Positions 1-26,804 of a DNA stretch of 44,443 bases are shown in pieces. The notes under the pieces are model-generated. The model saw only the letters and a list, made by a program, of their open reading frames with translations, was not told where the DNA came from and ran no database searches. The stretch comes from an uncultured Oscillospiraceae bacterium (GTDB lineage Bacteria > Bacillota > Clostridia > Oscillospirales > Oscillospiraceae). The translations under genes and the position numbers were made by a program. Numbering within the stretch: the stretch's first letter is position 1; each line of letters opens with the position of its first letter. Location: NCBI GenBank assembly GCA_947625845.1, contig CANQQB010000010.1, forward strand, positions 1 through 44,443. The letters run 5' to 3'.

Positions 1-77
1 TGGACCGCCTCCCCTTCGAGCAGATGAACGACATGGCGGAACGGACAGTCCCCATCCAGGGCGCCGTGGGCTTTCTC
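1..77. repeat. Terminal direct repeat (circular contig overlap), left copy
   Basis: These 77 bases are identical to the last 77 bases of the window. Both copies lie in the same place within the portal gene, and the reading frame is kept when one copy is removed. A short exact overlap at the cut point of an otherwise continuous gene is what an assembler leaves on a circular or terminally redundant genome. It is better read as circularity than as a biological terminal repeat. Confidence 0.95.
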
Positions 78-1889
78 GTGGACTGGGACAACACAAAGCG
101 CACACACTCCACCGTCGGAGAGGTGGACGTCCGTGTGATCCATCCAAAGCAGATCGCGCCACAGCCTGGCGTCTTTACCTCCATCGCGGATATGGACTGG
201 CTGATCATCATCAACCCAACCACCAAGGACGCGGTGCGCCGCAAGTACGGTGTAGACGTCTCCCTGGAGTCCGAGGAGGATCCGCAGGTCCGCACCCTGG
301 ACGCAGAGGTCTACGACGACGCCGTGACGGAGTACATCGGATTCGAGCGCAACGACGACGGCGGCATTAACCGCTATTGTTGGGTGGGAGACATTGAACT
401 GGAGGACCTGGAGGACTACCAGGCCCGCCGGCAGCCGGTCTGCAAGCACTGCGGCAGAGTCCGCCCCATGCCTGGCCAGATGATCTCCGCCCGGAAGGGC
501 GGCATGCCTGGGCCACAGGTGGACCGCCAGGACATAGAGCGCCGCGTGGCCGGCAAGATGCTGGCAGCACAGATGGCGCAGTCTCTCCTCACGGGAGAGG
601 GCCGGGAGCAGAAGGACGGCGGCCTGGCCTCCCTCTCCGCCGTCCCCTACGACACCTCCGATCCGGATCCGGTGGAGTATAACGGCGGTCCATGCCCATG
701 GTGCGGCTCCAACAGCTGGGAGTCCAGAAAGCAGGACTGGGAGGAAGTCGTGGTGCCGATCCGCAACGCCCAGGGCGAGGAGATCATCCCAGGCGCAACG
801 CCAGGATTTGACGAGGACGGCAACCCGGTCAACAAGCCCACCAAGATTCCGTATTACAAGCCGGACGTCTTCCCGCTGGTGCTGCAGCGCTCCGTGTCCG
901 TGTATGGCCAGCTGTTCGGAAACTCCGACGTGGATCAGATCCGGGATCAGCAGAACACTATCAACCGCATGGAGCGCAAGGTGGTAGACCGCTTGCTGAA
1001 GGCCGGCACGCGGATCACGATGCCGGCAGACAGCAACCTGAACATAGACTCCCAGGACCAGGAGACCTGGTACGTCAACAACCCTCAGGATATCACCATG
1101 ATAAAAACCCTGCAGTTTGAGGGCAACCTGCAGTACGAGCTGATGTACCTGGCCAACGTCTACGAGGAGGCCCGGCAGCTGCTGGGCATTACGGACTCCT
1201 TCCAGGGCAGGACGGACACCACCGCAACCAGCGGCAAGGCCAAGGAATTCGCGGCGGCGCAGTCCGCCGGACGGCTGGAGTCTAAGCGGATCATGAAGAA
1301 CGCTGCCTATGCCCAGATGTTCGAGCTCATGTTCAAAAACTGGCTGGCATACGGAGACGAACCCCGCCCCATAAGCTACAAGGACACCCAGGGCAACGCC
1401 CAGTACCAGGAGTTCAACCGCTACGACTTCCTGGAGAAGGACCAGGACGGCCAGTATTACTGGAATGACCAGTTTCTATTCTCCGTGGATGCCGCAGAAC
1501 CATTGGCCAGCAACCGAGAGGCCATGTGGCAGGAGACCAGGCAGAACCTGCAGACTGGCGCCTTCGGTGATCCGACGCAATTGGAGACCCTGATTCTCTT
1601 CTGGTCCCAGATGGAGGGCTTGCACTACCCAGAGGCGGCGAAAGCCAAGACGGCCCTGGAGGACCGCCTCAAACAGCAGCAGATGGCCATGAAGCAACAG
1701 CAGATGGCGATGCAGCAGCAAGCGGCTATGCAGCAACAGCAGATGACCATGGCCCAGGCACAGGCCCAGAGACAGCAGCAGGGCGCCGCCGGCGGCGGCC
1801 AGCAGATCGACCCGCGCATGCTCCAGGCCATAGACAACGCGGCCCGTCAGGCGGCCCAGAGAGACGCCCAGGCCGGGCGCAGACAGTAA
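1..1889 (+). CDS. Portal protein, C-terminal part (gene continues from the window's right end)
   Basis: The portal is the dodecameric ring at the head vertex through which DNA is packaged and ejected. Joined with 44054-44366 the gene encodes about 733 aa, close to the P22 portal length, and it directly follows the large terminase. This part holds the body, with repeated aromatic and acidic segments and the conserved-looking ring region (QQNTINRMERKVVDR). The C-terminal tail is very rich in Gln and Met (roughly the last 70 residues). An unusual insert carries two CxxC pairs, CKHCG and CPWCG, about 85 residues apart, which looks like a zinc ribbon split by a helical segment. Assignment to the portal is firm from position and size; the zinc site is inference. 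Confidence 0.85.
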   Translation, partial: DRLPFEQMNDMAERTVPIQGAVGFLVDWDNTKRTHSTVGEVDVRVIHPKQIAPQPGVFTSIADMDWLIIINPTTKDAVRRKYGVDVSLESEEDPQVRTLDAEVYDDAVTEYIGFERNDDGGINRYCWVGDIELEDLEDYQARRQPVCKHCGRVRPMPGQMISARKGGMPGPQVDRQDIERRVAGKMLAAQMAQSLLTGEGREQKDGGLASLSAVPYDTSDPDPVEYNGGPCPWCGSNSWESRKQDWEEVVVPIRNAQGEEIIPGATPGFDEDGNPVNKPTKIPYYKPDVFPLVLQRSVSVYGQLFGNSDVDQIRDQQNTINRMERKVVDRLLKAGTRITMPADSNLNIDSQDQETWYVNNPQDITMIKTLQFEGNLQYELMYLANVYEEARQLLGITDSFQGRTDTTATSGKAKEFAAAQSAGRLESKRIMKNAAYAQMFELMFKNWLAYGDEPRPISYKDTQGNAQYQEFNRYDFLEKDQDGQYYWNDQFLFSVDAAEPLASNREAMWQETRQNLQTGAFGDPTQLETLILFWSQMEGLHYPEAAKAKTALEDRLKQQQMAMKQQQMAMQQQAAMQQQQMTMAQAQAQRQQQGAAGGGQQIDPRMLQAIDNAARQAAQRDAQAGRRQ

Positions 1890-1936
1890 GCATACATCAC
1901 GCCAGGGCGACGGCCCCAGGCGGTGTAGTTGCGCAA

Positions 1937-1955
1937 GGGAACGCGGAAAAATCCC
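1937..1955 (+). promoter_or_regulatory. Short hairpin with conserved 11-nt loop, copy 1
   Basis: Stem GGGA/TCCC closes the loop ACGCGGAAAAA. This is one of four hairpins in the 1.94-2.24 kb region with the same loop but different complementary stems. It lies between the portal stop and the Shine-Dalgarno sequence of the 51-aa gene. Positions 1932-1955 recur exactly at 2188-2211. Function is unknown; a protein-binding RNA or DNA hairpin is a reasonable guess. Confidence 0.6.
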
Positions 1956-1983
1956 GACAACCCAGGAAAGGAGGACATGCACC

Positions 1984-2139
1984 ATGGCAGAGAAGAAGCC
2001 AACCGGCAAACCGTGCTATATCGGTCGGATCAAGAACACTGGCTCCCAGATCGTGGAGGCCCCGGTGTCTCCCGGTCCCAAGAACAAGACTGGCACAGTC
2101 CGCACCGGCACAGACCTCCGGGCGGGGAAGGGCAAGTAA
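1984..2139 (+). CDS. Small basic protein of the head operon (51 aa), unknown function
   Basis: The ATG at 1984 follows a strong AGGAAAGGAGG ribosome site and the gene ends with TAA at 2137-2139. The product is 51 aa, rich in Lys, Gly, Thr and Pro (begins MAEKKPTGKP), with no membrane segment and one Cys. It sits between portal and scaffold, where many phages encode minor head proteins or small structural cofactors, and it is flanked on both sides by copies of the conserved-loop hairpin. I do not recognise the family. The strong ribosome site and clean placement support a real gene; the function is open. Confidence 0.7.
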   Translation: MAEKKPTGKPCYIGRIKNTGSQIVEAPVSPGPKNKTGTVRTGTDLRAGKGK

Positions 2140-2164
2140 TACCAGCCTAGCACCACCACTCGCA

Positions 2165-2185
2165 CGGCAACGCGTAAAAATGCCG
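2165..2185 (+). promoter_or_regulatory. Short hairpin with conserved 11-nt loop, copy 2
   Basis: Stem CGGCA/TGCCG (5 bp) closes the loop ACGCGTAAAAA. The stem differs from copies 1, 3 and 4 at most positions on both sides yet still pairs. The loop differs from the others by one base (G to T). Confidence 0.6.
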
Positions 2186-2192
2186 ATCGCAA

Positions 2193-2211
2193 GGGAACGC
2201 GGAAAAATCCC
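2193..2211 (+). promoter_or_regulatory. Short hairpin with conserved 11-nt loop, copy 3
   Basis: Stem GGGA/TCCC closes the loop ACGCGGAAAAA. It lies within an exact 24-bp duplicate (2188-2211) of 1932-1955, on the other side of the 51-aa gene. Confidence 0.6.
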
Positions 2212-2221
2212 AAACTCGCAC

Positions 2222-2240
2222 GTCAACGCGGAAAAATGAC
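2222..2240 (+). promoter_or_regulatory. Short hairpin with conserved 11-nt loop, copy 4
   Basis: Stem GTCA/TGAC closes the loop ACGCGGAAAAA, the third distinct stem in the family. It is followed at once by another small hairpin (CCTCC 2243-2247 with GGAGG 2253-2257) just before the AAGGAG ribosome site of the scaffold gene. This pair could therefore influence scaffold translation. Confidence 0.6.
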
Positions 2241-2270
2241 AGCCTCCTGGCAGGAGGGGAAGGAGCAACC

Positions 2271-3305
2271 ATGACAGAGAGTGACATTTTCGAGGCGCTG
2301 GGCATCGACCCAAATCAGACGCAGACGCAGACGGACCCCCAGGCAAACAACCAGGGCAGCACCCAGGCAGACACCCAGGACCAGGGAACCGATGCAAATG
2401 GCGGTACCGCCGAGAAACAGCCGAAGGAGACGCAGACCGACGATGACAAGGGGCAAGGCGCAAACGGGCGGGGCAACGCCGAACCCGCACCCGAAGACGA
2501 CCAGGACAGCGGCGACAGAGGCAAGGCAGCAGAGACCAAAGCAGATCCCCGTGCACCCAAGGGCGAGAAAAGCGCGGAACAGGCAGAGAAGCGGAGACGC
2601 GACGAGGAAGAGGCAAGAATCAGAGATGCCGTACAACGGGCTCTCGCCGAAGAACGGAAGCGGAACGACGAGGCCCAGCAGAAACTGTTTGAGGAACTCA
2701 ACCTCCGCGACACCTCCACCAACAAGCCCATCAAGAACTTGAAGGAGTACCGCGACTGGAAGGACAACTTCAACGCCCAGAAGCTGCAGAAGGATCTCAA
2801 GGCCGGCAAGCTGACCCAGGAGCAGCTCTCTCAGCTCGTGGACAGCAACCCAACAGTACGGGAGATGAAGCGCCGCCAGCAGGAGGAGGACACCCGGAAG
2901 CGGCAGACGCAGCAGGAGGCAGCCCGGAAAGAAATCGAACGGCAGCTATCCGAGATCAACAAACTGGATCCGTCTATCAAGACGATAGACGATCTGCGCA
3001 AGATGGACAACTATCAGCAGTTCTATCAGACTGTCTCTCGGGGAAACAACTTCGTGGACGCGTACAAGCTGGTGAACTATGACAAGTTGATGTCCAACGC
3101 CAGCAAGCAGACCGCAGAAGCGGCCAAGCAGCAGGCGCTCAACAACGCCAGAGGCAAGGATCACCTGACGGGCATCAAGCCCCAGGGCAAGGGCGGCGGA
3201 TCCATTCCGGATGATGAGCTGGAGATTTTCCATGCCATCATGCCCAACACCACAGACAAGGAGATCGAGGCATACTGGCGAAAGACTCACAAAGGAGGGA
3301 AATAA
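2271..3305 (+). CDS. Head scaffolding protein
   Basis: Scaffolds line the inside of the procapsid, guide assembly of the capsid protein and are then removed. The 344-aa product has the usual make-up of this class. About the first 115 residues are disordered and rich in Gln, Asp, Thr and Lys. A long charged helical and coiled-coil region follows (about 115-300), then a short basic C-terminal tail (ends KTHKGGK) of the kind that binds the coat protein. The ATG at 2271 has a GGGAAGGAGC ribosome site. The gene lies between portal and capsid genes, the standard place for a scaffold. No protease motif is visible, so it is probably not fused to a maturation protease. Confidence 0.8.
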   Translation: MTESDIFEALGIDPNQTQTQTDPQANNQGSTQADTQDQGTDANGGTAEKQPKETQTDDDKGQGANGRGNAEPAPEDDQDSGDRGKAAETKADPRAPKGEKSAEQAEKRRRDEEEARIRDAVQRALAEERKRNDEAQQKLFEELNLRDTSTNKPIKNLKEYRDWKDNFNAQKLQKDLKAGKLTQEQLSQLVDSNPTVREMKRRQQEEDTRKRQTQQEAARKEIERQLSEINKLDPSIKTIDDLRKMDNYQQFYQTVSRGNNFVDAYKLVNYDKLMSNASKQTAEAAKQQALNNARGKDHLTGIKPQGKGGGSIPDDELEIFHAIMPNTTDKEIEAYWRKTHKGGK

Positions 3306-3306
3306 A

Positions 3307-3735
3307 ATGGCGTTTGAGCTCTACTCCAACGCACACGGCGCAGTGACTCCCCTGGAGTACCTGCCCGCCGAGGCCGGCACATATGAGCCTGGCCAGATGC
3401 TGGCCTTTAAGGCCGGCAAACTCTCCGCCATCGCCGAGGACGAGGCGGGCATCCCGCCGTACATGTCCCACGCCGCCAAGACAATTGGCAAGGACGGAGA
3501 CAACATTCTGCCATGCGAGCACGTTTCGCATGACGCCGTATACGAGACCACCCTGGACGCTGCTGCTGCAGGCCTGGTGCCTGGTAACCTGATGAAGGTC
3601 AAGGCAGGCGGCCTGGCCCCAACCGGCACGGAGGGCGGCTCCTTCGTCGTGGTATCCGTAGACGGTACCGCCGAGGGGGACAAGGTCCGTGGCCGCTTCG
3701 AGCCTCAGCAGGCAGCGGCCAGCGAGGCCGTCTAA
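3307..3735 (+). CDS. Probable head decoration/stabilisation protein
   Basis: The 142-aa product (begins MAFELYSNAH) is a compact, Gly- and Ala-rich beta-type protein without membrane segments, encoded one base after the scaffold stop and just before the major capsid gene. Small proteins at this spot commonly cap the capsid surface (lambda gpD-like role). The ATG at 3307 follows AAAGGAGG with good spacing. A longer reading frame begins inside the scaffold gene but has no ribosome site. The role comes from position and size, not from a recognised motif. Confidence 0.6.
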   Translation: MAFELYSNAHGAVTPLEYLPAEAGTYEPGQMLAFKAGKLSAIAEDEAGIPPYMSHAAKTIGKDGDNILPCEHVSHDAVYETTLDAAAAGLVPGNLMKVKAGGLAPTGTEGGSFVVVSVDGTAEGDKVRGRFEPQQAAASEAV

Positions 3736-3766: not shown

Positions 3767-4774
3767 ATGAAATTCCAATTCACCGAGGCCTCCGGCCTTG
3801 CGGACTCCATCTATGGCAAGTGCCAGACGCCTATCAAGATGTTCCTTGAGCAGCGGGGAGAGGCCATGGAAAAGGCCTCTCTGCTGAAGGAAGTCTTCAC
3901 CATGAACACCTCCAACAACTTCGGCGACACATACACCGGTATGACAGCCATGGAAGGCTTCAAGCCCGTGGGCGAGTCCGGCCCGTACCCAACAGACGGC
4001 ATGCAGGAGGGGTACAAAAAGACCATCCTGTATCACACCTGGAAAGACTCCTTCTCCATCTCCAAGGAGATGATCGAGGACGCAAAGCTCATGGACATGA
4101 AGAAGAAGCCCCAGAACTTCCTCACCGGCTACCACCGGACCCGCGAGAAGTTCGGCGCCGCCCTGTACGGCGCTGCCATCCAGGGCAAGAAGGAGACCAA
4201 CTTCAAGGGCGTAAACTTCGACACCACATGCAACGACGGTCTTCCTCTCTTCGACAAGGCTCACACCTCCATCCTGGACAAGAAGTTCAAGCAGTCCAAC
4301 ATGTTCTCCGACGCCTTCTCGGCAAAAGCCCTGGGTGCGCTGGAGACCCGCATGCAGAACTTCCGGGGCGATGCAAACGAGCTCCTGGACGTAGCCCCAA
4401 CCACCATTCTCATCCCAAATGACGCGGATCTGAAGGATGAGGTATTTGCCGCCATCGGCGCGGACAAGAACCCCGTCAACTCCAACAACGCGTTCAACTA
4501 CCAGTACGGTAGGTGGCGCGTGCTGGTCTGGAACTACCTCAACGACTACGTGGCCGATGGCAAAAAGCCATGGATCCTCCTGGACCAGGACTACAACGAG
4601 AAGTACAGCGGCGCAGTCTGGACGGACCGGATCCAGCTGGAGATGTCCTCCAAGATCGACGACAACACGGACTCCAACGTGTGGCGGGGCAGATCCCGTT
4701 ACAACGCTGGCTTCGTGGACTGGCGCTATGTCGCCATTGGCGGTGTAGACGGCGGAGACACGCTCATCGCGTAA
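3767..4774 (+). CDS. Major capsid protein (HK97-fold type)
   Basis: This protein forms the icosahedral shell. The 335-aa product starts MKFQFTEASG at the ATG at 3767, behind a GAAGAGGAGAG ribosome site; an in-frame extension upstream would overlap the decoration gene and lacks one. An early helical segment leads into a region resembling other HK97-like coat proteins (PLFDKAHTS near residue 155 and a DVAPTTILIP strand near 206). Order and length fit: scaffold, decoration protein, coat. It has no N-terminal delta domain, consistent with a separate scaffold gene. A hairpin follows the stop codon. Confidence 0.85.
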   Translation: MKFQFTEASGLADSIYGKCQTPIKMFLEQRGEAMEKASLLKEVFTMNTSNNFGDTYTGMTAMEGFKPVGESGPYPTDGMQEGYKKTILYHTWKDSFSISKEMIEDAKLMDMKKKPQNFLTGYHRTREKFGAALYGAAIQGKKETNFKGVNFDTTCNDGLPLFDKAHTSILDKKFKQSNMFSDAFSAKALGALETRMQNFRGDANELLDVAPTTILIPNDADLKDEVFAAIGADKNPVNSNNAFNYQYGRWRVLVWNYLNDYVADGKKPWILLDQDYNEKYSGAVWTDRIQLEMSSKIDDNTDSNVWRGRSRYNAGFVDWRYVAIGGVDGGDTLIA

Positions 4775-5246: not shown

Positions 5247-6102
5247 GAGGGCCCCGTACTACATCACCGCGTACGGCCTGGCCTGTAAGCACGGCTTCCA
5301 CGGCACGGAGGCGGAATGGCTGGAGTCCCTTCACGGAGAGAAGGGCGAGGACGGCCAGAACGCCGAGATTCAGAGATCCGGGAACAAGATCCAGGGGCGC
5401 ACTGGACCGGAGGGCGAGTGGTCCGATCTCTTCGACATCGACGAGCTGAAAAACGACGTGGTCCAGGAGACGGTCCAGGAGGCAAAGACAGCTGCCGAGA
5501 ACGCGCAGAAGGCCCAGACGGCGGCGGAGAAGGCCAAGACAGAGGCGGAGACGGCTGCCAAGTCCATCGCCGGAGACACCGACGCGGCGGCCAAGTCTGC
5601 AGCCCAGGCGGAGACGGCAGCTCTGGCGGCGTCGGAGTCTGCCAAGTCTGCAGCGCGGAATGCAACCGGCATTGCACAGTATACGCAGAGAGCCCTGGCT
5701 GCGGCAGAAGCAGCAGAGGCCGCAGACCAGTCTGTATCCCAGACGGCCCAGGAGGCCCTGGACGGCGCTCTGCTCTCCCGATCCTGGGCGGTAGGAGCCA
5801 CAGGCAAGCGGGAGGACGAGGACAACAACAACGCCAAGTACTGGGCGGCCAAGGCCAGGGCTGCAGCCGAGGAGGCGGTGGCGCCGGCGGTGAATGTGTA
5901 TAACATCATCGTCGAGGACCGGGACACCAAGGAAAACTTTGCAGTCCTGGTGGAGAACGGACAGCTGGTCCTGGTCAAGATGGAGAAGAAACTGAACGCG
6001 ACCGAGATGGATCTGGTGGACCGCCAGACCGGCAAGGCCTATGGCCTCATAGTCTCGGGAGGCGTGCTGCAGCTGGAGGAGCATCCAGCGGAAGGAGGCT
6101 AA
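5233..6102 (+). CDS. Fiber-like structural protein with collagen-type stretch and coiled coil
   Basis: The 289-aa product begins MAMYERAPYY. Residues about 18-32 (HGFHGTEAEWLESL) followed by GEKGEDGQ form a short module seen at the front of many Firmicutes phage fiber and collagen-like proteins. A long Ala/Glu/Lys-rich coiled coil of about 120 residues follows, then a small beta-rich C-terminal domain. Such proteins trimerise. The position between the connector and the DGR-target fiber suggests a head or tail fiber base, perhaps the attachment point for the next gene product. The ATG at 5233 has an AGGAGG ribosome site. The partner assignment is inference. Confidence 0.65.
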   Translation: MAMYERAPYYITAYGLACKHGFHGTEAEWLESLHGEKGEDGQNAEIQRSGNKIQGRTGPEGEWSDLFDIDELKNDVVQETVQEAKTAAENAQKAQTAAEKAKTEAETAAKSIAGDTDAAAKSAAQAETAALAASESAKSAARNATGIAQYTQRALAAAEAAEAADQSVSQTAQEALDGALLSRSWAVGATGKREDEDNNNAKYWAAKARAAAEEAVAPAVNVYNIIVEDRDTKENFAVLVENGQLVLVKMEKKLNATEMDLVDRQTGKAYGLIVSGGVLQLEEHPAEGG

Positions 6103-16862: not shown

Positions 16863-19800
16863 GTGGCTTACGGATACGGTAACAACCAAAACAACGGGCG
16901 CCGCATGACGCTGCAGGAGCGTCTGGACGCGATGAGAAAGACGGCAATCCAGGGGCACTATGGCTTTTCCCAGGATGACACGCCGAAAGAGCGCCTGAAG
17001 AAGCGCCTGAAGGCACTAAGGGATGGGTACGGAACGATCCCGCAAAGCAGCTGGACAAACCGGCAGGAGCAGCAGGAGCAGGACACCACCTCCCCGTCGA
17101 TGCAATTTGACCCGCAGCACAATGAGGCAGCGCCGAAAGGTGCTGGGACAACAACAAACCGGACAGGGGCAGGCACAGGGGAGGAACGGCGTTTCGACCC
17201 GCTGCACAACACACTGGCAGCAGCAGGAGGCCAGGACGGCACGAGCCGTCCTGGCTCCGTGACGCCAACAACGGTGGAAACGACTCCGACAAGCACAAGG
17301 CAGCAGGACAACCGCACGTTGGAGCAGAGGTGGCTGGACATGATCGCAGACCAGCGCCGGGAGCGGGAAGAAGCTGCAGAGGCCGGGGAGGCCCGCCCGG
17401 TGCAGTCCTACACGGTGAGGGAGGATTCACCACTCAGCCGCATAATTGCAGAGGTGACGGGCACGACGCCAAGCACCGCGCAGGCAGAAGACTATCAAGG
17501 GGAACTGGACCGCATCGCAACAATTATGCCCATGATAGACCGCCTGGAAAAGGCGATCCGCACTGGTGCGCTCTCTCCGGATCAGCAGAAGGAGCTGGAC
17601 GAGGCCAGGGCGGCGCTCTCTCCGTACCTCCCGGACCTGGCGCAGACCAACAGTGCGGATGAGCTGCACAACAACCTGGAGTACCTGGCACGGCAGCGCC
17701 AGGACATACAGAACCGCCAGAACCTGGGGACGCTGCTGCAGAACCAGGACGCAATGGGCGCGTACGAGAAAAAGGACGAGTTCACCCAGGACCTCACGGA
17801 TCTAAACTACATGATCTCGGATCTGGTGAACGGAGGCCGGGCGGACTCGGACAGATACAAGGAGCTGAAAGAGAAATACAGCCTCACAGACTCCATGCTG
17901 GCCGGATACGTTCGGGCGGTGCAAACTGGCATCGAAGAAGAGGACTGGGAGGAAGCTGGCCTCACAGACTGGCAGAGTGTGGCCAATCTGAAGAATAACC
18001 TGCAGGACAACATAAACCGCTACAGCGAGCGCATGACAGAGGCCGGAGTGGATCCGGATCAGCTGGAGGAGTACATCACCAGGACGGCGAAAGAGCAGGA
18101 AGTACTGGACCAGGCGGAGTCGAACAGGCTTTACATGCAGGAGAATCCTCTGAACTGGCTATTTGGCTCTGCTGTATCCGTCTTCAGCAATATTGGCTCT
18201 TCCTTAGAAGCGCTGAATATGTACATCCGCAATCGGGATAACAACGACCCGATGAGCGAGGACTACAGGCCATACTCCGTAGCAGATCTGCCAAACACAA
18301 TCTACACCCAGGCGTTGCGCGAGGGTGGCGGAGAAGCGGTCGCCAACACGTTCGACACAGTCAAAGCACTTCTTGGCGGTGAAGATACCGAGGACGTTCG
18401 ATGGTTGGGGAACTTCCTGTACAACACGGGCATGTCCATCGCAGACTCCGCAACCGTGATGGCAGCTGCAGCCGCAACTGCCGGAGCCGCAGGTCTTCCA
18501 ATGGCTGCAGCAGAGGCTATGACACTGTTCACAATGGGCGGGACAGCAGCCAGCAACGCCGCAGTGGATGTGATCCAGCGCGGAGGCAGCAATCAGCAGA
18601 TCATGCAGGAGTCTCTGGCGTCCGGAGTCTTCGAGGCGTTCTTTGAAAAGTTCAGTGTAGACCGGATCTTTAAAATGGGTCACGTGGGAACGGTAAAGGC
18701 CTGGGTAAAGGAGATGCTGAAGCAAGCAGGCATTGAGGCATCCGAGGAGATGGCAACAGAGACCGCCAACATCATCGCGGATGCAATCATCATGACAGAC
18801 AAGTCGGACTTTGAGATGGCGGTGCAGCAGTACCGGTCGGACTTCATCAACAACGAGGGATACAGCTACGACGAAGCGGATCAGGCCGCCAGGGCTGCAG
18901 CCATCGTGGACATGGTGAGACGAGTTGGAGAAGCCGGCCTGGGCGGCGCTATCTCTGGAGCGGTGATGGGCGGTGTTCACAACTTCCAGGGTATGCGCTA
19001 CGAGTCTGCGGTGCTGGAAAACGCCAGGAATGGCATAGCACTAAACGCTGAGCAGAGGGAAAACATTTCCCGAAACGTGTTAGACGGAGAAGGGCTGCTG
19101 GCAGAACATGACCAGCTCATCCAGGAATACCGGGCACGCCATGCAGAGGAGATAGCGGCCAGAAGTGCGCAGAACGGCCAGGAAACGGCGCAAAACGGCG
19201 AGAACGGCAAGGGGGATACAGACACACGGCAGGATGGCCAGAACGGCAACCAGGACGAGCAGGGGCCGGACAATGGTCAGAATAGACGGGGCCTCACGCA
19301 ATCCATGCAGGAGTGGATGGACAAGTACCGCGAACGGCAGCAGGCCAGGAGACAGCAGAGGGAGACGCGGCGAGAGGGCCGCGTGTTTGCTGCCAGAGAC
19401 ATGCGCACATATCGGGACGGCGAAGCCGGGCGCGGTATCCTGACAACGGGGGACTATGCAAACCTGAACAGACTGGCCAGGTCCTCTGGCCAAAATATCT
19501 ACATTGTGGACGACGTGGAAAATCAGGATGTCCAGGGGTGGTACAAGGACGGGAGCATATACATCACAGAAAGCGCACTGAGAAGCGGAAGCAGCGCATG
19601 GACTACCGCTGTTCATGAGGCCTCCCACGCGCTGAAGGAGACGGCGCCGCAGCAGTACGCCAGGCTGCAAAGAGCTGCTGCTGCCATGTACGGCAGCGAG
19701 GAGAACATGATTCGCACACTGCAGCAAGCCTCCGCCAGAAGTGGGGTAGAGCTCACGGCGGAAGAGGCGGCAGACGAGGGCGTGGCGGTTCTGATGGAAC

Positions 19801-22800
19801 GTATGGCATACAACCCGAACTTGTTCGAGCGTGTGGCATTCCGGGACATGAACGCCGCACAGCAGATCTGGATCACAGTCCGGAACGAGCTGGGCAACAT
19901 TCGGGACGCCATCACACACCGGGAGCTGAGCAACACCGAAAGAGTGGTGAATGCTTGGGGCGATGCGCTGGATGAGGCCAGGAGAACCGCCAGGACAAGA
20001 CGCCAGGGCACGACAACCGAGGGCACGGACAACGGACAGGACACAGCCGCACCTCCGCCGGCGCCGGCTGCCGAGGGAGATCAGACAACCACCGCGCCGA
20101 CGCTGGAGAACGGCCAGGGACTGCGGGCGGGACCGGAGACAGAAGGGGAGACGGCAGCGCCGCAGACGGAGGGTGAGACCGTAACGGAAGAGACCGGAGA
20201 AGAGACGGCTGCCCAAAACGAAGGGGAAGAGACTGTAACTCCGGAGGCCGGAGAGGAACAGACGGCAGAGCCGGTACCGCTGGAGCAGAGATCTGTTGAA
20301 GAGCTGCAGCGGATGCTGGACGAGCAGCGCAATAATCCTACCATGACGCCGGAAGAGATGGTGGAGCTGGCAACAGTTCTGTACCAGAAGCAGCAACAGC
20401 AGGCGGAGACGCCGGTGCTGCAGGGCGACGGCCTGACGGCGGGCCCGGTGGAACAGGACCAGGCAAGAGAAGACCAGGAGCGTCAGGCCAGAGAGGAAGC
20501 TGCCGAGGAACGCCGGGAGGCGGCGGAGACAGAGGAGCAGACAACAGAGACCGAGGAGACGCCCCAGGAACAGATGCCGGCACTGCAGGGCGAAGGGCTC
20601 ACCGCTGGGCCAACAGTGGAAGAGCAGGAACAGACCAGGGCCCAGGAAGAGCAGACACAGCAGGAAGAAGAGGAACGCCAGAGGGCAGCGGAACAGGCAA
20701 GGCAGGAACAGCTCCGACAGCAGAGATGGCGCAGACAGCAGAACGAGACCAGGGCGCAGTGGCTGGATCGTCTTTATGCCGATCGCCTGAGCGGGCAGCT
20801 CACGCAGGAGGAATTCGAGCGCGGGATAGATGATTACAGCAGGAGCAGACAGGACAGTGTAATGGCAAGCCTGCAGAACGCTCTCCCGATGCTGGCCAAC
20901 GAGGAAGGCCTAAGGGCTGGAGATCTCACCGAGGAGGAGCAGGCGGCCGCCAGGGTGCAGAGTCTGCTGCCGTCGGAAGAGACAACAGAGGCAGAGGGCG
21001 CGGCAGAAGCAGAAGAGACGGCGGACGGTACAGAGGCAGAGAACACAGAGGAGACCAGGGAGACGGCGGAACCGGACGACGGAACGAGAGCATATCAGGA
21101 TAGGGTCATTTCGCAGATCCAAGATCTGATGCAGCATGACACTACACTCCGCAATCTGGCCCAGATGCAGCGCCAGGGAATTCTAACGGATGCCCAGTAC
21201 GCAAATCTGCGGGACGCTGCATTGCGTGCGAACGACCGATATCAATCCCTGGTGCGCAGCCTGACGTGGACGAACATAGACCAGACGCAAAGCGCCCAGG
21301 AGCAGGGCCAGGCGGTCCAGGATGAAGAGAGGACACCGCAGCCGAGATCTGAAGTAGAGCGAACCCAGCAGCGAGTGCAGGACGAGCTCACCATGGGGGA
21401 TATCAGCTACGACGAGGCACAGATCCAGCTCCGTATGGCGGAAGCTGCACAGCTGCCGGTGCGGAGTGAAGGCCTGGAAACTGAGGACGGACTCCGGGCC
21501 GGAGAGCTCACGGAGACGGAACAGAGAATCCAGGATATCACACAGCAGATGGCAGATCTGGAGGAGAGCATCCCGGCACTGCGCGGAAGCCGCCAGAACA
21601 TGGAGCAGGGATACCTCTCCCAGGAGGCGTACGAGCAGCAGAGGCAGGAGACACTGCAGAACAACGAACGGTACTTGGATCTAAGGCGCCAGCTCACCGA
21701 GGCCAGAAACAACAGATTCCAAGAGAGCAATCCGGAGTACGAACAACAGGCGGCGCAGATCCGGGACAGCTACGAACGGGCGGGCCTGGCTGAACATTAC
21801 GACCGGATCCAGCAGGCGAAGCAGGACTATCTCAACGAGGACGACACGGTACAATGGATCCAGCAGACATACGAACGTGGAGACATGACGCAGGCCGAGA
21901 GAGATGCGGAGATGTTGGACTATCTGACGAACAGCACGGAGTGGCAAAACCTCCTCACACAGGAGCGCAACCTGGCAAACCGACGGGACGGCGCGACAGC
22001 CGAGACGGCGGAGGACCTGCCAAGACTGCTGCCGGCGGACATGATCGAAGAGCAGCAGACCAGGAGCGCCGATGCAGAGAACCGTGCAGAGGCCCCGACA
22101 CTGGCGGAGATCCGGCAGCAGGCACGGCAGGAGGCACAGCAGAGAGGACAGGCGGAGATAGAAGAGCAGGTCCAGGAATTCGCCCGGCAAACATCTGATC
22201 CGTCTGTAACGGTGGAGCAGGCGCAGAACCGCATGGCGGAGATCTCACGAGAGATGGCTGAACAAAGCCCGGATATGATGGCACTGGAGGATAGCCGAAG
22301 GGCCGACGCGATCACAGAGGACGAGTACCGCCAGCGCAGGGCACAGATTCTGCTGGCAAACACGGAGTACCGCGAGATGGCCAGGGCAATCATCGCCAAG
22401 GGCCTCAATCAGATCCAGCAGCAGGAGCAGACACAGAGAGACGGCAGAATGTACCGGCTACAAAGCACCAGCGAGGCGGTGGAAGCGGCGCTTGCGCTGC
22501 AACAGCAGCTGGAGCAGGACAACAAGGAACTGCGGAAAACCAACAAGCGGCTGGAACGGCGCGTGGCCTACTACATGGAGCAGTGGAAAATCACGAATAG
22601 GCAGCAGGCAGACCCGGCAAAGGTACAGGAATACGTACGAAGAGAAATGGATTACTACGGCAGCCAGGCATACTTGGATAGCGTGCTGGAGAAGGTGACG
22701 GCTGCCTACGACCGCATGGCAACACTGGACCCGACAAAGGTGGACATCACACAGGACCAGCAGGTGAACGAATTGCTGCAGGAGGCTGCAGAGGAGATCG

Positions 22801-25800
22801 TGCGCAATGCGTACGAAGACTGGGCGGCGGAATACGGCGACGACCCGATGGTGGACTACATCCGTACCACGGCAATCGATATTACAGGGCTGGAAGAGGA
22901 AATCAAAAGCCGCTACGACACAATGAAGAATTTCCGGAAGGAAATGCGGGGAATCCTGCGAATTGCGACAAAGGCGCAATCCCGCAATGCGCAAAGCCCG
23001 GCGGGGCTGGTGCAGGAGCTGGAATCCACGTTCGGTACACGGATAACGCAAGGAGACAGCGAGGCGGAGGCTCTATTCTCTCTGATCCAATATGTTGAGC
23101 GCATGACAGAGGAAAACTGGCAGCCCAGTTTTGACGAAGAGGGGGTACAGGCAGAGTCTGCAAACCTGGCCGCGAAGCTGAAGGAGAGTTTCTTCACCCT
23201 GCCGAAGGTACGGGAGACACGGATGGACCGGCTGCAGCAGAAACAACAGCAGGAGCTGGACAAGCTGGAGAAGAAGTACCAGAAGCGCATAGACCAGATG
23301 AACCGGGAGAACGAGCAGACAGAGGCGTACCTCAAGAGCCGCATTGAGCGCACAAAGACGAGGGCGGCGATGGAGCAGCAGCAGATTCGGGCGCGGCACG
23401 CGGCGGCGGATCTGGCCAGGCGAAACAACCAAACCTCTCGGGAACTCCGGGACAAGATCTATCGCCACGCTATGCAGCTGAGCCATAAGCTCTTGAACCC
23501 GACGGACAAGCAGCATATCCCGGATACACTGCGGGACGCTACCAAGGCGCTGCTGGAGTCCCTGGACCTGGAGTCCTCCTTCGGCTACACCGACGACACC
23601 AGGACGTCGAGACGGCCCAACAAGGTAACCATCACTACCACCAACGAGGACGGCACAACGACAGTCCAGGAGATGCGTCGGGAAGATCTCTACCCGACAA
23701 AACGCACAGAGGCAGCCAGGGAGCTCTCCAAGGCTCTGACGGAGCTGCGGGACAGCGGCTTGAGTGAGATCACGATAGACCCGGACCTGGCGAACAAACT
23801 GGACCAGGTGGCCAACTTCCCGGATCGTATGGTGAGTGAGCTGGACAAGGAACAGCTGCAGGTGCTCTGGGAGGCAATCACCTCTCTGGAGCACGCTGTA
23901 ACCAACGCAAACAAGATGCTTGGCAGAAGCCGCATCGAAAATGTCAGCGACCTTGCGGTGCAAATCATCAAGACGGCGAACCAGGACAGAAGCCGGAGAG
24001 ACGCGACACGCCAGGACAAGTACAACTATCTCGGCATAGTTGGGATAGTGGATAACCTGCTGCAGGTGGAGCAGCTCACGCCGGAGACATTCTTCCACCG
24101 GATGGGACCGGGCGGAGACGAGCTTTTCCGCCAGGCAAGGCGGGCCCAGGAAGACCAGGTATTCATCCTGAATGAGGGCAGACAGGTCTTCAAGAACGCT
24201 ATGAAGTCTGCGGGCATTGACGAAAAGCAGGTGAGAGCGTGGGAGAAAGACCAGGACGCAGACGGCCACACCTTCACGTTTGAGGGTGCGGAGGAGACAA
24301 GGTCAATCAAACTCAGCACAGGGCAGATTCTGGAACTCTGGCTGTTGTCCCAGCGGGAACAGGCCATAGACCATATCACCATCGGCGGCATCCAGTCCAA
24401 GGTGGGCGAGACGACCGCCAAGAAATTCGGAGTGCCGATCAAGGTAAAGAACACATCGGCAGACGCGGTATTCATCGGCGCGGAAGGGATCAACACCATC
24501 ACCAAGGGGCTGACAGACCAGCAGAAGACATTCGCAAAGGCGCTGCAGAACTACCTGGCCGGAGGCCTGGCTGCGAGAGGAAACATGGCATCCGTGGAAG
24601 TCTACGGCTATTCCAAGTTCACGGAGCAGAACTACTGGCCAATCACGACGCAAAGCGAGTCTAACCAGGTGGACTTCACCAAGGGGCGGGACAACGCAAA
24701 CGGTGCAAACATGATTTCGTCCTATGGCATGGCCAAGGCAACGGTGCCGAACGCCAGAAATCCTGTGGTGCTTCGCAATGTGACGGACACATTTGCCCGT
24801 CACCTGGACCAGATGGCCACATACGCGGCCTGGCTGAGCACCAGCGAGAACCTGGCCAAGGTGTACAACTACAAGCTGATGGAGGAGTCCACAGAAGGCA
24901 AGCGCCTAAATACCACAGTGCGGTCTGCGGTGAACAAGATCATGGGAGACCAGGGGGATACCTACTGGCGAAACCTGCTCTTTGACATCGCCATAGGGAC
25001 AAAGGCCGGGGCGGAGAGATCTATCACGGACGCGGGCCTGAATGCATTCAAGGCCGCTGCCGTGGGTGCGAATATCCGCGTGATTCTGCAGCAGCCAACG
25101 GCCATTATCCGTGCCGCCGAGATGCTCAACCCAAAGTACCTCACCAAGGTAAAATCGCCGTTCCAGGCTTTCGAGCGTGCCAAGCAGCACAGCGGAATTG
25201 CCCAGTGGAAAGACTGGGGCTACTTCGAGCTTGACACAGGGCGCAACCTGCGGGAGCTGATGCTGGGTGAGGATAGCGCACTGGACAAGGTGAAGAACGG
25301 CATGATGGCCGGCGCCGGCATGGCGGACAACTTCGCATGGGGTATCCTGTGGAACGGAGTCGAGGCCGAGACAAGAGATCTGCACCCGGAGGTGCTGGAG
25401 GGATCCCAGGAGTTCTGGGACATCTGCGCGGAGCGATTCGGCGCGATAATCGACAGGACCCAGGTTGTGGACTCTGTGCTGCATAGATCCCAGATCATGC
25501 GGAGCACCGGAGGCCTGAACCGTTTGGCCACGTCCTTCATGTCTGAGCCTACCAAGGTGTATAACATGATCGTCCGAGACATCTACGACATCGGACAGGC
25601 GATCCGGACAGGAGACAAGGCAGCGGTGAAAGCCGCACGACAGCACGTGGCCAGGACAGCGGCGGCGCTGATCATCAGTTTTGCGGTGAACGGCATAGCC
25701 AGGGCAATCCCTGATTTCTTCCGTTCCGACGACCGGGACAAGGACGAAAAGACGTTCTGGGACGAGTGGTGGGAGAACTTCACCAGCGACTTTGACCCGC

Positions 25801-26804
25801 TCTCGTACATACCGTACCTGAGAGACATCGAGTCCATTATCCAGGGCTTCGACGTCGAGCGATCGGACCTCTCCGGGATCTCCGATCTGGTCCAGTCCGC
25901 ACAGGCACTGGTCCAGGCGGTGAACGGTGAGGGCAAAAAATCAGTGTTCAACGCTGGCCAGGCCATGGCCAGAAAAGGCGCTGCCGCCCTCGGCCTCCCG
26001 GTGGACAACCTGGCACGCGATGCGACGGCGATCTTTAACACGTGCCTCTGGAAGTCCGGCAACTATGTCATGACATACAACCTGGACAAGATCATGTTGA
26101 ACCAGGGCAACAAAGCAAACGACGCGACGTTCTACGACACGCTGTACCGGGCGATGATGGACGACAACAAACAATACCGGACGATCTACCAGGACATGAT
26201 CGCCAACGGCTACAGTGAGGAGTCCATCAAGTCCGCCATGGAGCAGCGCCTCTGGAAGGAGGCGCAGGAGAAATGGGCAGGCGAGGACGATATCACCGCG
26301 ACCGGATCCGGGCTGTTGCCGGTGGAGTGGCAAGCACCGGGGAAGGATACGAAGTGGGACAAGTTCCTGGAGGAGATCCGGGACGAGGACAACTGGGCGG
26401 ACGTGATCGGCGATGACTACTGGGGAATGGCAGCAACACTGCAGGATGCTCCGACGGGAAACAGCAAAGAGGCAACGGCGGAAAAGCGAAGAATGATCGC
26501 GGATCAGCCGTACACCGAAGACATCAAGGAAGATGCGATGGAGGCGATCCTGAGCGAGGGCGCATTCAAGAAGTACATGGCAGCCAGGGCCGCAGGGGTA
26601 TCGACGTACAACTATGTAGATCTCCTGGAGGACATGGAAGCTGAGGCGGAACGCGTACGCGTGAAGGAAGGAAAGAAGACGGCCACAATCACAATGGACA
26701 TTGTGGAGAAGATCCTGAAGCAGTCCAGCCTGACGAAGAAGCAAAAGGCCGCGATCTGGAAGAGCTACTCAAGCGCCAAGAACCCGGTGAGCCCCTGGGG
26801 CTGA
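16863..26804 (+). CDS. Giant polyvalent internal virion protein with HExxH metalloprotease-like domain
   Basis: The GTG at 16863, behind GCAAAGGGGG, starts a 3313-aa protein. Residues 1-200 are disordered. About 520-570 and 690-710 are Ala/Gly-rich hydrophobic stretches that could enter a membrane. HEASH at 918-922, with a downstream EEAADEG (about 966-972), fits a zinc protease site. About 1050-1850 is a very Gln/Glu-rich region carrying five GL(R/T)AG motifs and about five short helical repeats. Long coiled coils follow (about 1860-2200). The C-terminal 1000 residues resemble the globular ends of giant phage polyvalent proteins, with a hydrophobic segment near 2930-2950. It is probably packaged and ejected into the host. 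Function beyond this is inference. Confidence 0.7.
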   Translation: MAYGYGNNQNNGRRMTLQERLDAMRKTAIQGHYGFSQDDTPKERLKKRLKALRDGYGTIPQSSWTNRQEQQEQDTTSPSMQFDPQHNEAAPKGAGTTTNRTGAGTGEERRFDPLHNTLAAAGGQDGTSRPGSVTPTTVETTPTSTRQQDNRTLEQRWLDMIADQRREREEAAEAGEARPVQSYTVREDSPLSRIIAEVTGTTPSTAQAEDYQGELDRIATIMPMIDRLEKAIRTGALSPDQQKELDEARAALSPYLPDLAQTNSADELHNNLEYLARQRQDIQNRQNLGTLLQNQDAMGAYEKKDEFTQDLTDLNYMISDLVNGGRADSDRYKELKEKYSLTDSMLAGYVRAVQTGIEEEDWEEAGLTDWQSVANLKNNLQDNINRYSERMTEAGVDPDQLEEYITRTAKEQEVLDQAESNRLYMQENPLNWLFGSAVSVFSNIGSSLEALNMYIRNRDNNDPMSEDYRPYSVADLPNTIYTQALREGGGEAVANTFDTVKALLGGEDTEDVRWLGNFLYNTGMSIADSATVMAAAAATAGAAGLPMAAAEAMTLFTMGGTAASNAAVDVIQRGGSNQQIMQESLASGVFEAFFEKFSVDRIFKMGHVGTVKAWVKEMLKQAGIEASEEMATETANIIADAIIMTDKSDFEMAVQQYRSDFINNEGYSYDEADQAARAAAIVDMVRRVGEAGLGGAISGAVMGGVHNFQGMRYESAVLENARNGIALNAEQRENISRNVLDGEGLLAEHDQLIQEYRARHAEEIAARSAQNGQETAQNGENGKGDTDTRQDGQNGNQDEQGPDNGQNRRGLTQSMQEWMDKYRERQQARRQQRETRREGRVFAARDMRTYRDGEAGRGILTTGDYANLNRLARSSGQNIYIVDDVENQDVQGWYKDGSIYITESALRSGSSAWTTAVHEASHALKETAPQQYARLQRAAAAMYGSEENMIRTLQQASARSGVELTAEEAADEGVAVLMERMAYNPNLFERVAFRDMNAAQQIWITVRNELGNIRDAITHRELSNTERVVNAWGDALDEARRTARTRRQGTTTEGTDNGQDTAAPPPAPAAEGDQTTTAPTLENGQGLRAGPETEGETAAPQTEGETVTEETGEETAAQNEGEETVTPEAGEEQTAEPVPLEQRSVEELQRMLDEQRNNPTMTPEEMVELATVLYQKQQQQAETPVLQGDGLTAGPVEQDQAREDQERQAREEAAEERREAAETEEQTTETEETPQEQMPALQGEGLTAGPTVEEQEQTRAQEEQTQQEEEERQRAAEQARQEQLRQQRWRRQQNETRAQWLDRLYADRLSGQLTQEEFERGIDDYSRSRQDSVMASLQNALPMLANEEGLRAGDLTEEEQAAARVQSLLPSEETTEAEGAAEAEETADGTEAENTEETRETAEPDDGTRAYQDRVISQIQDLMQHDTTLRNLAQMQRQGILTDAQYANLRDAALRANDRYQSLVRSLTWTNIDQTQSAQEQGQAVQDEERTPQPRSEVERTQQRVQDELTMGDISYDEAQIQLRMAEAAQLPVRSEGLETEDGLRAGELTETEQRIQDITQQMADLEESIPALRGSRQNMEQGYLSQEAYEQQRQETLQNNERYLDLRRQLTEARNNRFQESNPEYEQQAAQIRDSYERAGLAEHYDRIQQAKQDYLNEDDTVQWIQQTYERGDMTQAERDAEMLDYLTNSTEWQNLLTQERNLANRRDGATAETAEDLPRLLPADMIEEQQTRSADAENRAEAPTLAEIRQQARQEAQQRGQAEIEEQVQEFARQTSDPSVTVEQAQNRMAEISREMAEQSPDMMALEDSRRADAITEDEYRQRRAQILLANTEYREMARAIIAKGLNQIQQQEQTQRDGRMYRLQSTSEAVEAALALQQQLEQDNKELRKTNKRLERRVAYYMEQWKITNRQQADPAKVQEYVRREMDYYGSQAYLDSVLEKVTAAYDRMATLDPTKVDITQDQQVNELLQEAAEEIVRNAYEDWAAEYGDDPMVDYIRTTAIDITGLEEEIKSRYDTMKNFRKEMRGILRIATKAQSRNAQSPAGLVQELESTFGTRITQGDSEAEALFSLIQYVERMTEENWQPSFDEEGVQAESANLAAKLKESFFTLPKVRETRMDRLQQKQQQELDKLEKKYQKRIDQMNRENEQTEAYLKSRIERTKTRAAMEQQQIRARHAAADLARRNNQTSRELRDKIYRHAMQLSHKLLNPTDKQHIPDTLRDATKALLESLDLESSFGYTDDTRTSRRPNKVTITTTNEDGTTTVQEMRREDLYPTKRTEAARELSKALTELRDSGLSEITIDPDLANKLDQVANFPDRMVSELDKEQLQVLWEAITSLEHAVTNANKMLGRSRIENVSDLAVQIIKTANQDRSRRDATRQDKYNYLGIVGIVDNLLQVEQLTPETFFHRMGPGGDELFRQARRAQEDQVFILNEGRQVFKNAMKSAGIDEKQVRAWEKDQDADGHTFTFEGAEETRSIKLSTGQILELWLLSQREQAIDHITIGGIQSKVGETTAKKFGVPIKVKNTSADAVFIGAEGINTITKGLTDQQKTFAKALQNYLAGGLAARGNMASVEVYGYSKFTEQNYWPITTQSESNQVDFTKGRDNANGANMISSYGMAKATVPNARNPVVLRNVTDTFARHLDQMATYAAWLSTSENLAKVYNYKLMEESTEGKRLNTTVRSAVNKIMGDQGDTYWRNLLFDIAIGTKAGAERSITDAGLNAFKAAAVGANIRVILQQPTAIIRAAEMLNPKYLTKVKSPFQAFERAKQHSGIAQWKDWGYFELDTGRNLRELMLGEDSALDKVKNGMMAGAGMADNFAWGILWNGVEAETRDLHPEVLEGSQEFWDICAERFGAIIDRTQVVDSVLHRSQIMRSTGGLNRLATSFMSEPTKVYNMIVRDIYDIGQAIRTGDKAAVKAARQHVARTAAALIISFAVNGIARAIPDFFRSDDRDKDEKTFWDEWWENFTSDFDPLSYIPYLRDIESIIQGFDVERSDLSGISDLVQSAQALVQAVNGEGKKSVFNAGQAMARKGAAALGLPVDNLARDATAIFNTCLWKSGNYVMTYNLDKIMLNQGNKANDATFYDTLYRAMMDDNKQYRTIYQDMIANGYSEESIKSAMEQRLWKEAQEKWAGEDDITATGSGLLPVEWQAPGKDTKWDKFLEEIRDEDNWADVIGDDYWGMAATLQDAPTGNSKEATAEKRRMIADQPYTEDIKEDAMEAILSEGAFKKYMAARAAGVSTYNYVDLLEDMEAEAERVRVKEGKKTATITMDIVEKILKQSSLTKKQKAAIWKSYSSAKNPVSPWG

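Follow-up and report, generated by a model that had tools for sequence, protein, structure and literature searches.

A small RNA pseudoknot beside the presumed scaffold gene suggests an undescribed switch of scaffold synthesis in gut phages

The head operon and its repeated element

The window, meaning the whole 44,443-nt stretch of DNA analysed here, opens on a phage head operon whose features, all on the plus strand, are as follows.

24 to 1889, plus strand: P22-type portal protein (listed start; the window opens 23 nt upstream)
1932 to 1955, plus strand: predicted pseudoknot copy 1 (S1 1932-1934/1943-1945; S2 1937-1940/1952-1955; A-rich L3 1946-1951)
1967 to 1974, plus strand: ribosome-binding site AAAGGAGG of the 51-aa gene, read from the sequence
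1984 to 2139, plus strand: 51-aa basic protein, PHROG 30605 (function unassigned)
2161 to 2185, plus strand: predicted pseudoknot copy 2 (S1 2161-2163/2172-2174; S2 2165-2169/2181-2185; L3 TAAAAA 2175-2180)
2188 to 2211, plus strand: predicted pseudoknot copy 3 (S1 2188-2190/2199-2201; S2 2193-2196/2208-2211)
2217 to 2240, plus strand: predicted pseudoknot copy 4 (S1 2217-2219/2228-2230; S2 2222-2225/2237-2240)
2243 to 2257, plus strand: local hairpin CCTCC-TGGCA-GGAGG, adjoining the presumed scaffold ribosome site and outside the conserved element
2260 to 2265, plus strand: ribosome-binding site AAGGAG of the presumed scaffold gene, read from the sequence
2271 to 3305, plus strand: presumed scaffold protein, PHROG 35275 (no function label), its role taken from its position in the interval between portal and major head protein
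3307 to 3735, plus strand: 142-aa head-region protein, PHROG 24113 (no function label)
3767 to 4774, plus strand: major head protein, PHROG 371, Pfam Phage_capsid_4

The name "scaffold" follows gene order only, in the window and in the other head types described below, as no profile supports the label. Copy 1 ends 11 nt before the ribosome-binding site of the 51-aa gene, and the distance from the end of copy 4 to the presumed scaffold ribosome site is 19 nt. A sequence-only reading of the window had placed four hairpins around the 51-aa gene of the head operon, the last of them closely preceding the presumed scaffold ribosome site; this setting is borne out, and the four loop copies and their stems lie exactly where that reading put them. 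The local hairpin at 2243-2257 would find no room in 22 of 41 relatives, in which fewer than 10 nt separate the pseudoknot end from the ribosome site. Elsewhere in the window, a 3313-aa open reading frame at 16863-26804 has zero Pfam matches and presumably encodes a giant virion or ejected protein.

The hairpin portions of the four copies read GGGA-ACGCGGAAAAA-TCCC (1937-1955), CGGCA-ACGCGTAAAAA-TGCCG (2165-2185), GGGA-ACGCGGAAAAA-TCCC (2193-2211) and GTCA-ACGCGGAAAAA-TGAC (2222-2240). A CGCA begins 4-5 nt 5' of each hairpin (at 1932, 2161, 2188 and 2217), and its CGC can pair with the GCG of the loop. The hairpin with a single-stranded 11-nt loop, as first proposed, was rejected, since scans that ignored S1 show an upstream CGC matching the loop GCG. 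The element is instead predicted to be an H-type pseudoknot of 24-25 nt, ordered CGC(S1)-AN-S2-AC-GCG(S1')-GAAAAA-S2', with an S1 of 3 bp and an S2 of mostly 3-5 bp; L1 is mostly 1-2 nt long, L2 mostly 2-3 nt, and L3 is A-rich and 6 nt long. In the window, tandem pseudoknots are spaced by 27-29 nt. Between copies 1 and 3, sequence identity spans the 24 nt of the pseudoknot exactly and breaks off at the first base on either side, so that it does not belong to a longer plain repeat. A search of the window for the loop returned three exact matches and one with a single mismatch, all inside this cluster. With up to two mismatches allowed, the whole window gave 15 matches against 10.1 expected, a number equalled in 7 of 100 shuffles and thus unremarkable; it is the exact copies, the way they cluster and their stems that carry the evidence. 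A covariance model whose 55 source copies all lie outside the window and belong to a different loop-length class recovered exactly the four copies in the 44-kb window (E 8.5e-5 to 7.2e-4), with the next match at E 6.2. Nested folding alone gave no signal at the element (z 0.55), as would be expected of stems of 3-5 bp.

Pairing and covariation in relatives

Relatives came from three scans, of which the first applied a pattern to IMG/VR (17 contigs), the second used the major head protein (50 loci) and the third applied a broader pattern (69 stretches). Forty-eight loci (L038-L085) were fetched by capsid protein alone, with the element playing no part in their selection. The anchor site, defined as GNG plus an A-rich hexamer, is found in this set at 82 distinct places near the small and presumed scaffold genes, and both stems form at 57 of these, S2 only at 2, S1 only at 3 and neither at 20; both stems form at 9 of 472 sites elsewhere on the same strand and at 2 of 76 on the antisense strand. 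Of the 59 capsid-fetched sites near the two genes with an S2 of at least 3 bp, 57 carry a matching S1 triplet (53 CGC/GCG and 4 CCC/GGG), the two with S2 and without S1 carrying GGG and GAG. Conversely, S2 forms in 57 of the 60 S1-paired sites near the two genes in the capsid-fetched loci, by means of 15 different stems.

The same relationship was found in the wider set, in which an S1-blind examination of 152 distinct hairpins near these genes found the complement present at the proper spacing for 130 of 130 GCG, 6 of 6 GGG and 2 of 2 GAG triplets, in sequences partly fetched with patterns containing CGC, GCG and most of S2, so that these counts lean towards the structure. The remaining 14 of the 152 carry other triplets, 11 unpaired and 3 paired, and resemble chance. 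An S2-blind examination of 141 sites, in which 2 lacked S1 pairing and were chance-like, found an S2 of at least 3 bp in 132 of the other 139, spread over 30 stems, whereas 500 re-dealings of the 3' ends gave 56.6 on average and 75 at most; kinship among the sequences, together with pattern fetching, inflates this count as it does the S1-blind and covariation values of the wider set. When 55 copies are aligned without gaps, pairing holds in 99.7% of cells and the covariation score is 0.322 versus 0.110 (0 of 500 shuffles); sliding the structure lowers pairing to 21-46%. The S2 pair of columns 8-23 is paired in 55 of 55 copies (34 C-G, 21 G-C), under a fetch pattern that let C or G stand independently on either side. 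The outer two S1 pairs are invariant in this alignment, partly fixed by selection, and the middle pair is G-C in 51 copies, C-G in 3 and U-A in 1. Compensatory change is thus present in both of the interleaved helices, in the middle pair of S1 and in the variety of S2. The CCC/GGG variant occurs in L072, L046, L004, L065, L174 and L147, and the CTC/GAG variant in two copies of L142. In the L142 group, the variant copies (U-A in the middle of S1) lie between the small and presumed scaffold genes, with a G-C copy 27 nt downstream. S1 is otherwise near-constant, the first base of L1 is invariant in the selected copies and L3 is A-rich. A G-U pair stands at the innermost position of S2 in 16 of the 55 copies, and this tolerance argues that the element acts as an RNA of the coding (sense) strand. 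The pairing and covariation tests in relatives thus uphold the earlier proposal of a real structured RNA with compensatory stems, and neither of the two contrary outcomes named in advance, namely a kept loop over stems that do not pair and a motif embedded in a longer plain direct repeat, was encountered.

Prevalence and position

Among the 39 non-redundant capsid-fetched loci having the region, 33 carry the element; it precedes the presumed scaffold gene in 31 of 39 and the small gene in 25 of 38. The descriptor finds no copy in six of the 39 (L040, L044, L045, L052, L079 and L084), L052 having a bulged copy. Since the descriptor shows no copy in these six and 4 of 9 relatives of L211 (see below) show none, the element is not indispensable. 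Repeats of AATTAAC occupy the same gaps in L040 (4111-4220), and a repeated CCCGCGAACCGTAGG unit does so in L084 (4183-4310), no pseudoknot having been found in either stretch. Copy number is at least two in 46 of the 72 loci with distinct copies and one in the other 26.

In the window's phage group, copies precede both the small gene and the presumed scaffold gene. Over all loci, a pattern-biased total of 133 distinct CGC/GCG descriptor matches includes 60 in the gap between small and presumed scaffold genes and 46 in that between portal and small genes. The nearest copy ends at a median of 7 nt from the presumed scaffold ribosome site (n = 41; quartiles 2-20; maximum 151; 31 below 20 nt) and of 11 nt from that of the small gene (n = 50; quartiles 10-14; 45 below 20 nt), and such distances mostly fall within the reach of an initiating ribosome. 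In L041, where an apparent open reading frame (by eye) follows the small gene, the pseudoknot still lies beside the presumed scaffold start. The human faecal record MT837280 (L201), of the window's head type, carries a copy before the presumed scaffold gene, recognised by eye, with an S2 of CCGA/TCGG, to which the covariance model gives only a partial match of 8.6 bits. The expectation that copies with varied stems would recur in relatives was confirmed, but that of a general spread between head genes was not, the copies of the window's group standing before the small and presumed scaffold genes.

Loci with other major head proteins

In head type 2, whose major head protein is PHROG 267, the element lies right before the presumed scaffold gene in L211, L087/L200, L162, L213 and L215. 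L211, from a genome of the same order but another family, has the gene order terminase, portal, two tandem copies, presumed scaffold and PHROG 267, and lacks a small gene; its portal belongs to PHROG 156, as does that of the window, so that the two types have some relationship. A copy right before the presumed scaffold gene occurs in five of the nine capsid relatives of L211 (two distinct elements), and the other four show none. A covariance model built without L200, L211, L213, L215 and L221 finds all of them (E 5.8e-7 to 0.0046), the second L211 copy being found at E 0.016; the L162 copies were among the source sequences of the model. In head type 3, with major head protein PHROG 422, a copy lies 50 nt 5' of the presumed scaffold start codon in L017/L221 (E 0.00067). 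At the same place, L222 and L223 have CGC...GCG with S2 changed to GGGC/GCCC and GCGC/GCGC, still pairing; the L222 copy came from a looser script and the L223 copy was found by eye, and the covariance model finds neither.

The presumed scaffolds of type 2 match the family model of the window's protein weakly (L162 E 2.4e-5, L213 0.001, L211 0.005, L215 0.024), and those of L087 and of head type 3 have no match to it at E < 1. These weak matches could come from composition; they would also fit a common binding partner. L087 has an 80-aa K/G-rich open reading frame without a PHROG match in place of the 51-aa gene (5833-6075). In L162 there is a gap of about 360 nt between portal and pseudoknot (5705-6067), with no obvious gene and self-complementary-looking by eye.

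Searches of genomes and databases

No match at the gathering cut-off of Rfam 15 was found in the window or in six relatives, the three sub-threshold matches being attributable to chance, in keeping with the earlier remark that no described phage RNA family is known to have this loop. The literature search, in which PMC8040213 was covered in part and whose scope ended at subscription papers and outside preprints, yielded no description of such an element. On this account we regard the element as a new RNA family.

In 99 host genomes, the strict pattern matched only in the window's own genome; the covariance model finds a copy in G077, one of these 99 genomes, in which the strict pattern had no match, and this makes the strict-pattern result weak evidence on absence from hosts. 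The covariance model matched 7 of 391 genomes of the class, three of which were accepted by context (the window, L205 and L206/L211), and the 3-kb loci of the other four held no head-family match; in 398 genomes of the phylum it matched three, the same three. A pattern scan of the genome collection gave 46 loci, 11 of them (14 copies) accepted by stem pairing and next gene and 35 ascribed to chance, some of the accepted ones being host contigs of IMG/VR loci already in the set. A contig of Oscillibacter sp. ER4 (L182) is one carrier of the element. When a non-G-C middle pair was forced, nine loci were returned, of which four near-identical CTC/GAG loci and one CCC/GGG locus were accepted, and four were judged to be chance, as S2 pairing, S1 pairing or neighbouring copies were missing. 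The accepted matches in bacterial genomes adjoin head genes, and the element thus looks phage-borne.

Comparison with known systems

The P22 scaffolding protein (gene 8) exerts post-transcriptional feedback on its own synthesis, as established genetically, and we know of no RNA target for this feedback. The likeness to the present case lies in the control of scaffold synthesis; however, the P22 portal-scaffold junction, in which the scaffold gene begins 13 nt after the portal gene, holds no such pseudoknot. The coat-protein operator of MS2/R17, RNA phages, is a simple hairpin over the replicase start codon, and the resemblance here is that a protein of virion assembly governs translation by way of a small structured RNA at the start site. 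The preQ1-I riboswitch and other small H-type pseudoknots with A-rich loops share the topology and the A-rich third loop. However, the present element has a 3-bp S1, lacks an Rfam match and lies among head genes rather than in a metabolic context, which places it outside the preQ1-I family. The type III antitoxin RNA ToxI likewise consists of tandem short pseudoknots, whereas the present element has head genes as neighbours, frequently occurs as a single copy and is placed at ribosome sites.

The closest precedent is the operator of gene 32 in T4, T2 and RB69, a small pseudoknot (about 28 nt) 5' of the ribosome site in a dsDNA phage mRNA, through which the gene is autogenously repressed (PMC3014915; PMC535899). 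However, that operator serves a single-strand binding protein gene, apparently differs in sequence, and consists of a single structure that lies 67 nt upstream and has an A+U-rich region for spreading, whereas the present element is often tandem and mostly less than 20 nt from the presumed scaffold ribosome site. As judged by gene context, the element falls outside the gene 32 operators, the downstream gene being a presumed scaffold or small gene, and by analogy it would most likely work like the gene 32 pseudoknot outside that family. The gene 32 pseudoknot is possibly the only viral one in translational autoregulation, according to a review (PMC3014915). In the literature passages covered, those of PMC3185693, PMC12005531 and PMC9320234 among them, the P22 scaffold feedback was not found stated. 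For T4, a review describes minimal feedback between assembly and structural protein translation (PMC9576892).

A model for control of scaffold synthesis

Position, a weak unliganded fold, tandem copies and limitation to the small and presumed scaffold genes lead us to propose that the element may well be a cis-acting translational operator for synthesis of the presumed scaffold. The earlier suggestion that it controls expression is thereby plausible too. This model proposes that the pseudoknot, single or in tandem, would stand in the mRNA just 5' of the presumed scaffold ribosome-binding site and, in the window's group, the same operator would also stand at the small basic protein gene. A trans-acting partner would bind or lock the weak pseudoknot, whose 3' end would mostly lie inside the footprint of the initiating ribosome, such that binding may lower or tune scaffold initiation while the portal upstream and the coat downstream would stay unaffected. 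The element, its two stems, its covariation, strand, position and spread and its independence from the 51-aa gene are shown here; transcription as part of this mRNA, an effect on translation and binding by a protein are what we infer. The likeliest partner would be free scaffold protein, giving feedback as in P22. This identification is a guess that we hold with less than even confidence; the P22 analogy and the weak matches of type 2 scaffolds speak for it, while the lack of a match for the scaffolds of L087 and type 3 at E < 1, the lack of the element in P22 and the T4 review leave room for coat protein or a host factor.

An alternate scenario, which we consider unlikely, is that the pseudoknot is recognised by a host component found in many bacteria, such as an initiation factor, a ribosomal protein or the 30S ribosome, and would favour high translation as an enhancer or standby site rather than serve phage feedback. 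The near-constant S1, the invariant first base of L1 and the A-rich L3 across different major head proteins would fit this, as would the ribosome site close by. However, the window copies stand only before the small and presumed scaffold genes and not before the coat gene, which requires the highest output, and the element appears phage-borne. It is less probable still that the element governs mRNA processing or stability, blocking a 5' exonuclease after cleavage between portal and scaffold and so raising scaffold and coat over portal. Its location at that boundary and the loci with at least two copies are compatible with such a role, but stems of 3-5 bp are weak for the purpose, and neither the short distance to ribosome sites nor repeats flanking the small gene would be needed.

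The 51-aa protein is a further candidate partner, encoded between two sets of copies. It is basic (11 K+R, 3 D+E), belongs to a small basic family (PHROG 30605) of roughly 43 aa that sits between copies in the window's group, and could on this account be an RNA-binding repressor of itself and of the presumed scaffold gene. Querying with the 51-aa protein by itself returned no relatives, and AlphaFold gave no confident fold for the family (pLDDT 61, pTM 0.14), a result uninformative on RNA binding either way. However, the small-protein model has no match at E < 1 in the element carriers L211, L162, L087/L200, L213, L215 and the L017 group, and the gene occurs where the descriptor detects no element in L040, L044, L045, L079 and L084. 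The element thus does not depend on this gene, and the protein is unlikely as sole partner, the repressor proposal being one that we regard as distinctly improbable.

That the element mimics an RNA of defence or of a toxin-antitoxin system (type III antitoxin repeats or a CRISPR repeat) is very improbable; the tandem spacing in the window resembles that of type III antitoxin arrays, but the copies are placed at ribosome sites and are single in 26 of 72 loci. In a profile search of the host genome for ToxN (PF13958), neither the query nor its control matched anywhere. Chance similarity or an unstructured plain repeat, which the shortness of the element and the 35 chance loci among 46 in the loose genome scan might suggest, is contradicted by the pairing of both stems in capsid-fetched loci, covariation, position and enrichment, and can be practically discarded.

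The operator model has a further, tentative extension that we think doubtful on balance, by which the element would be a mobile RNA module that moves among phage lineages whose major head proteins differ and settles next to the scaffold cistron as a general rheostat of capsid assembly. If true, scaffold synthesis would gain its first RNA operator family, perhaps recognised by a factor common to these phages or by one of the host. The balance of scaffold, portal and coat in dsDNA phages is an old question, and an element of 24 nt, backed by covariation and placed at the presumed scaffold start in many gut phages, offers a concrete target that is easy to mutate. Should it prove to be an operator, it would join gene 32 as a viral autoregulatory pseudoknot and provide a compact regulatory part from uncultured phages. 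The available data thus suggest an undescribed switch that sets the amount of scaffold protein in gut phages of three head types.
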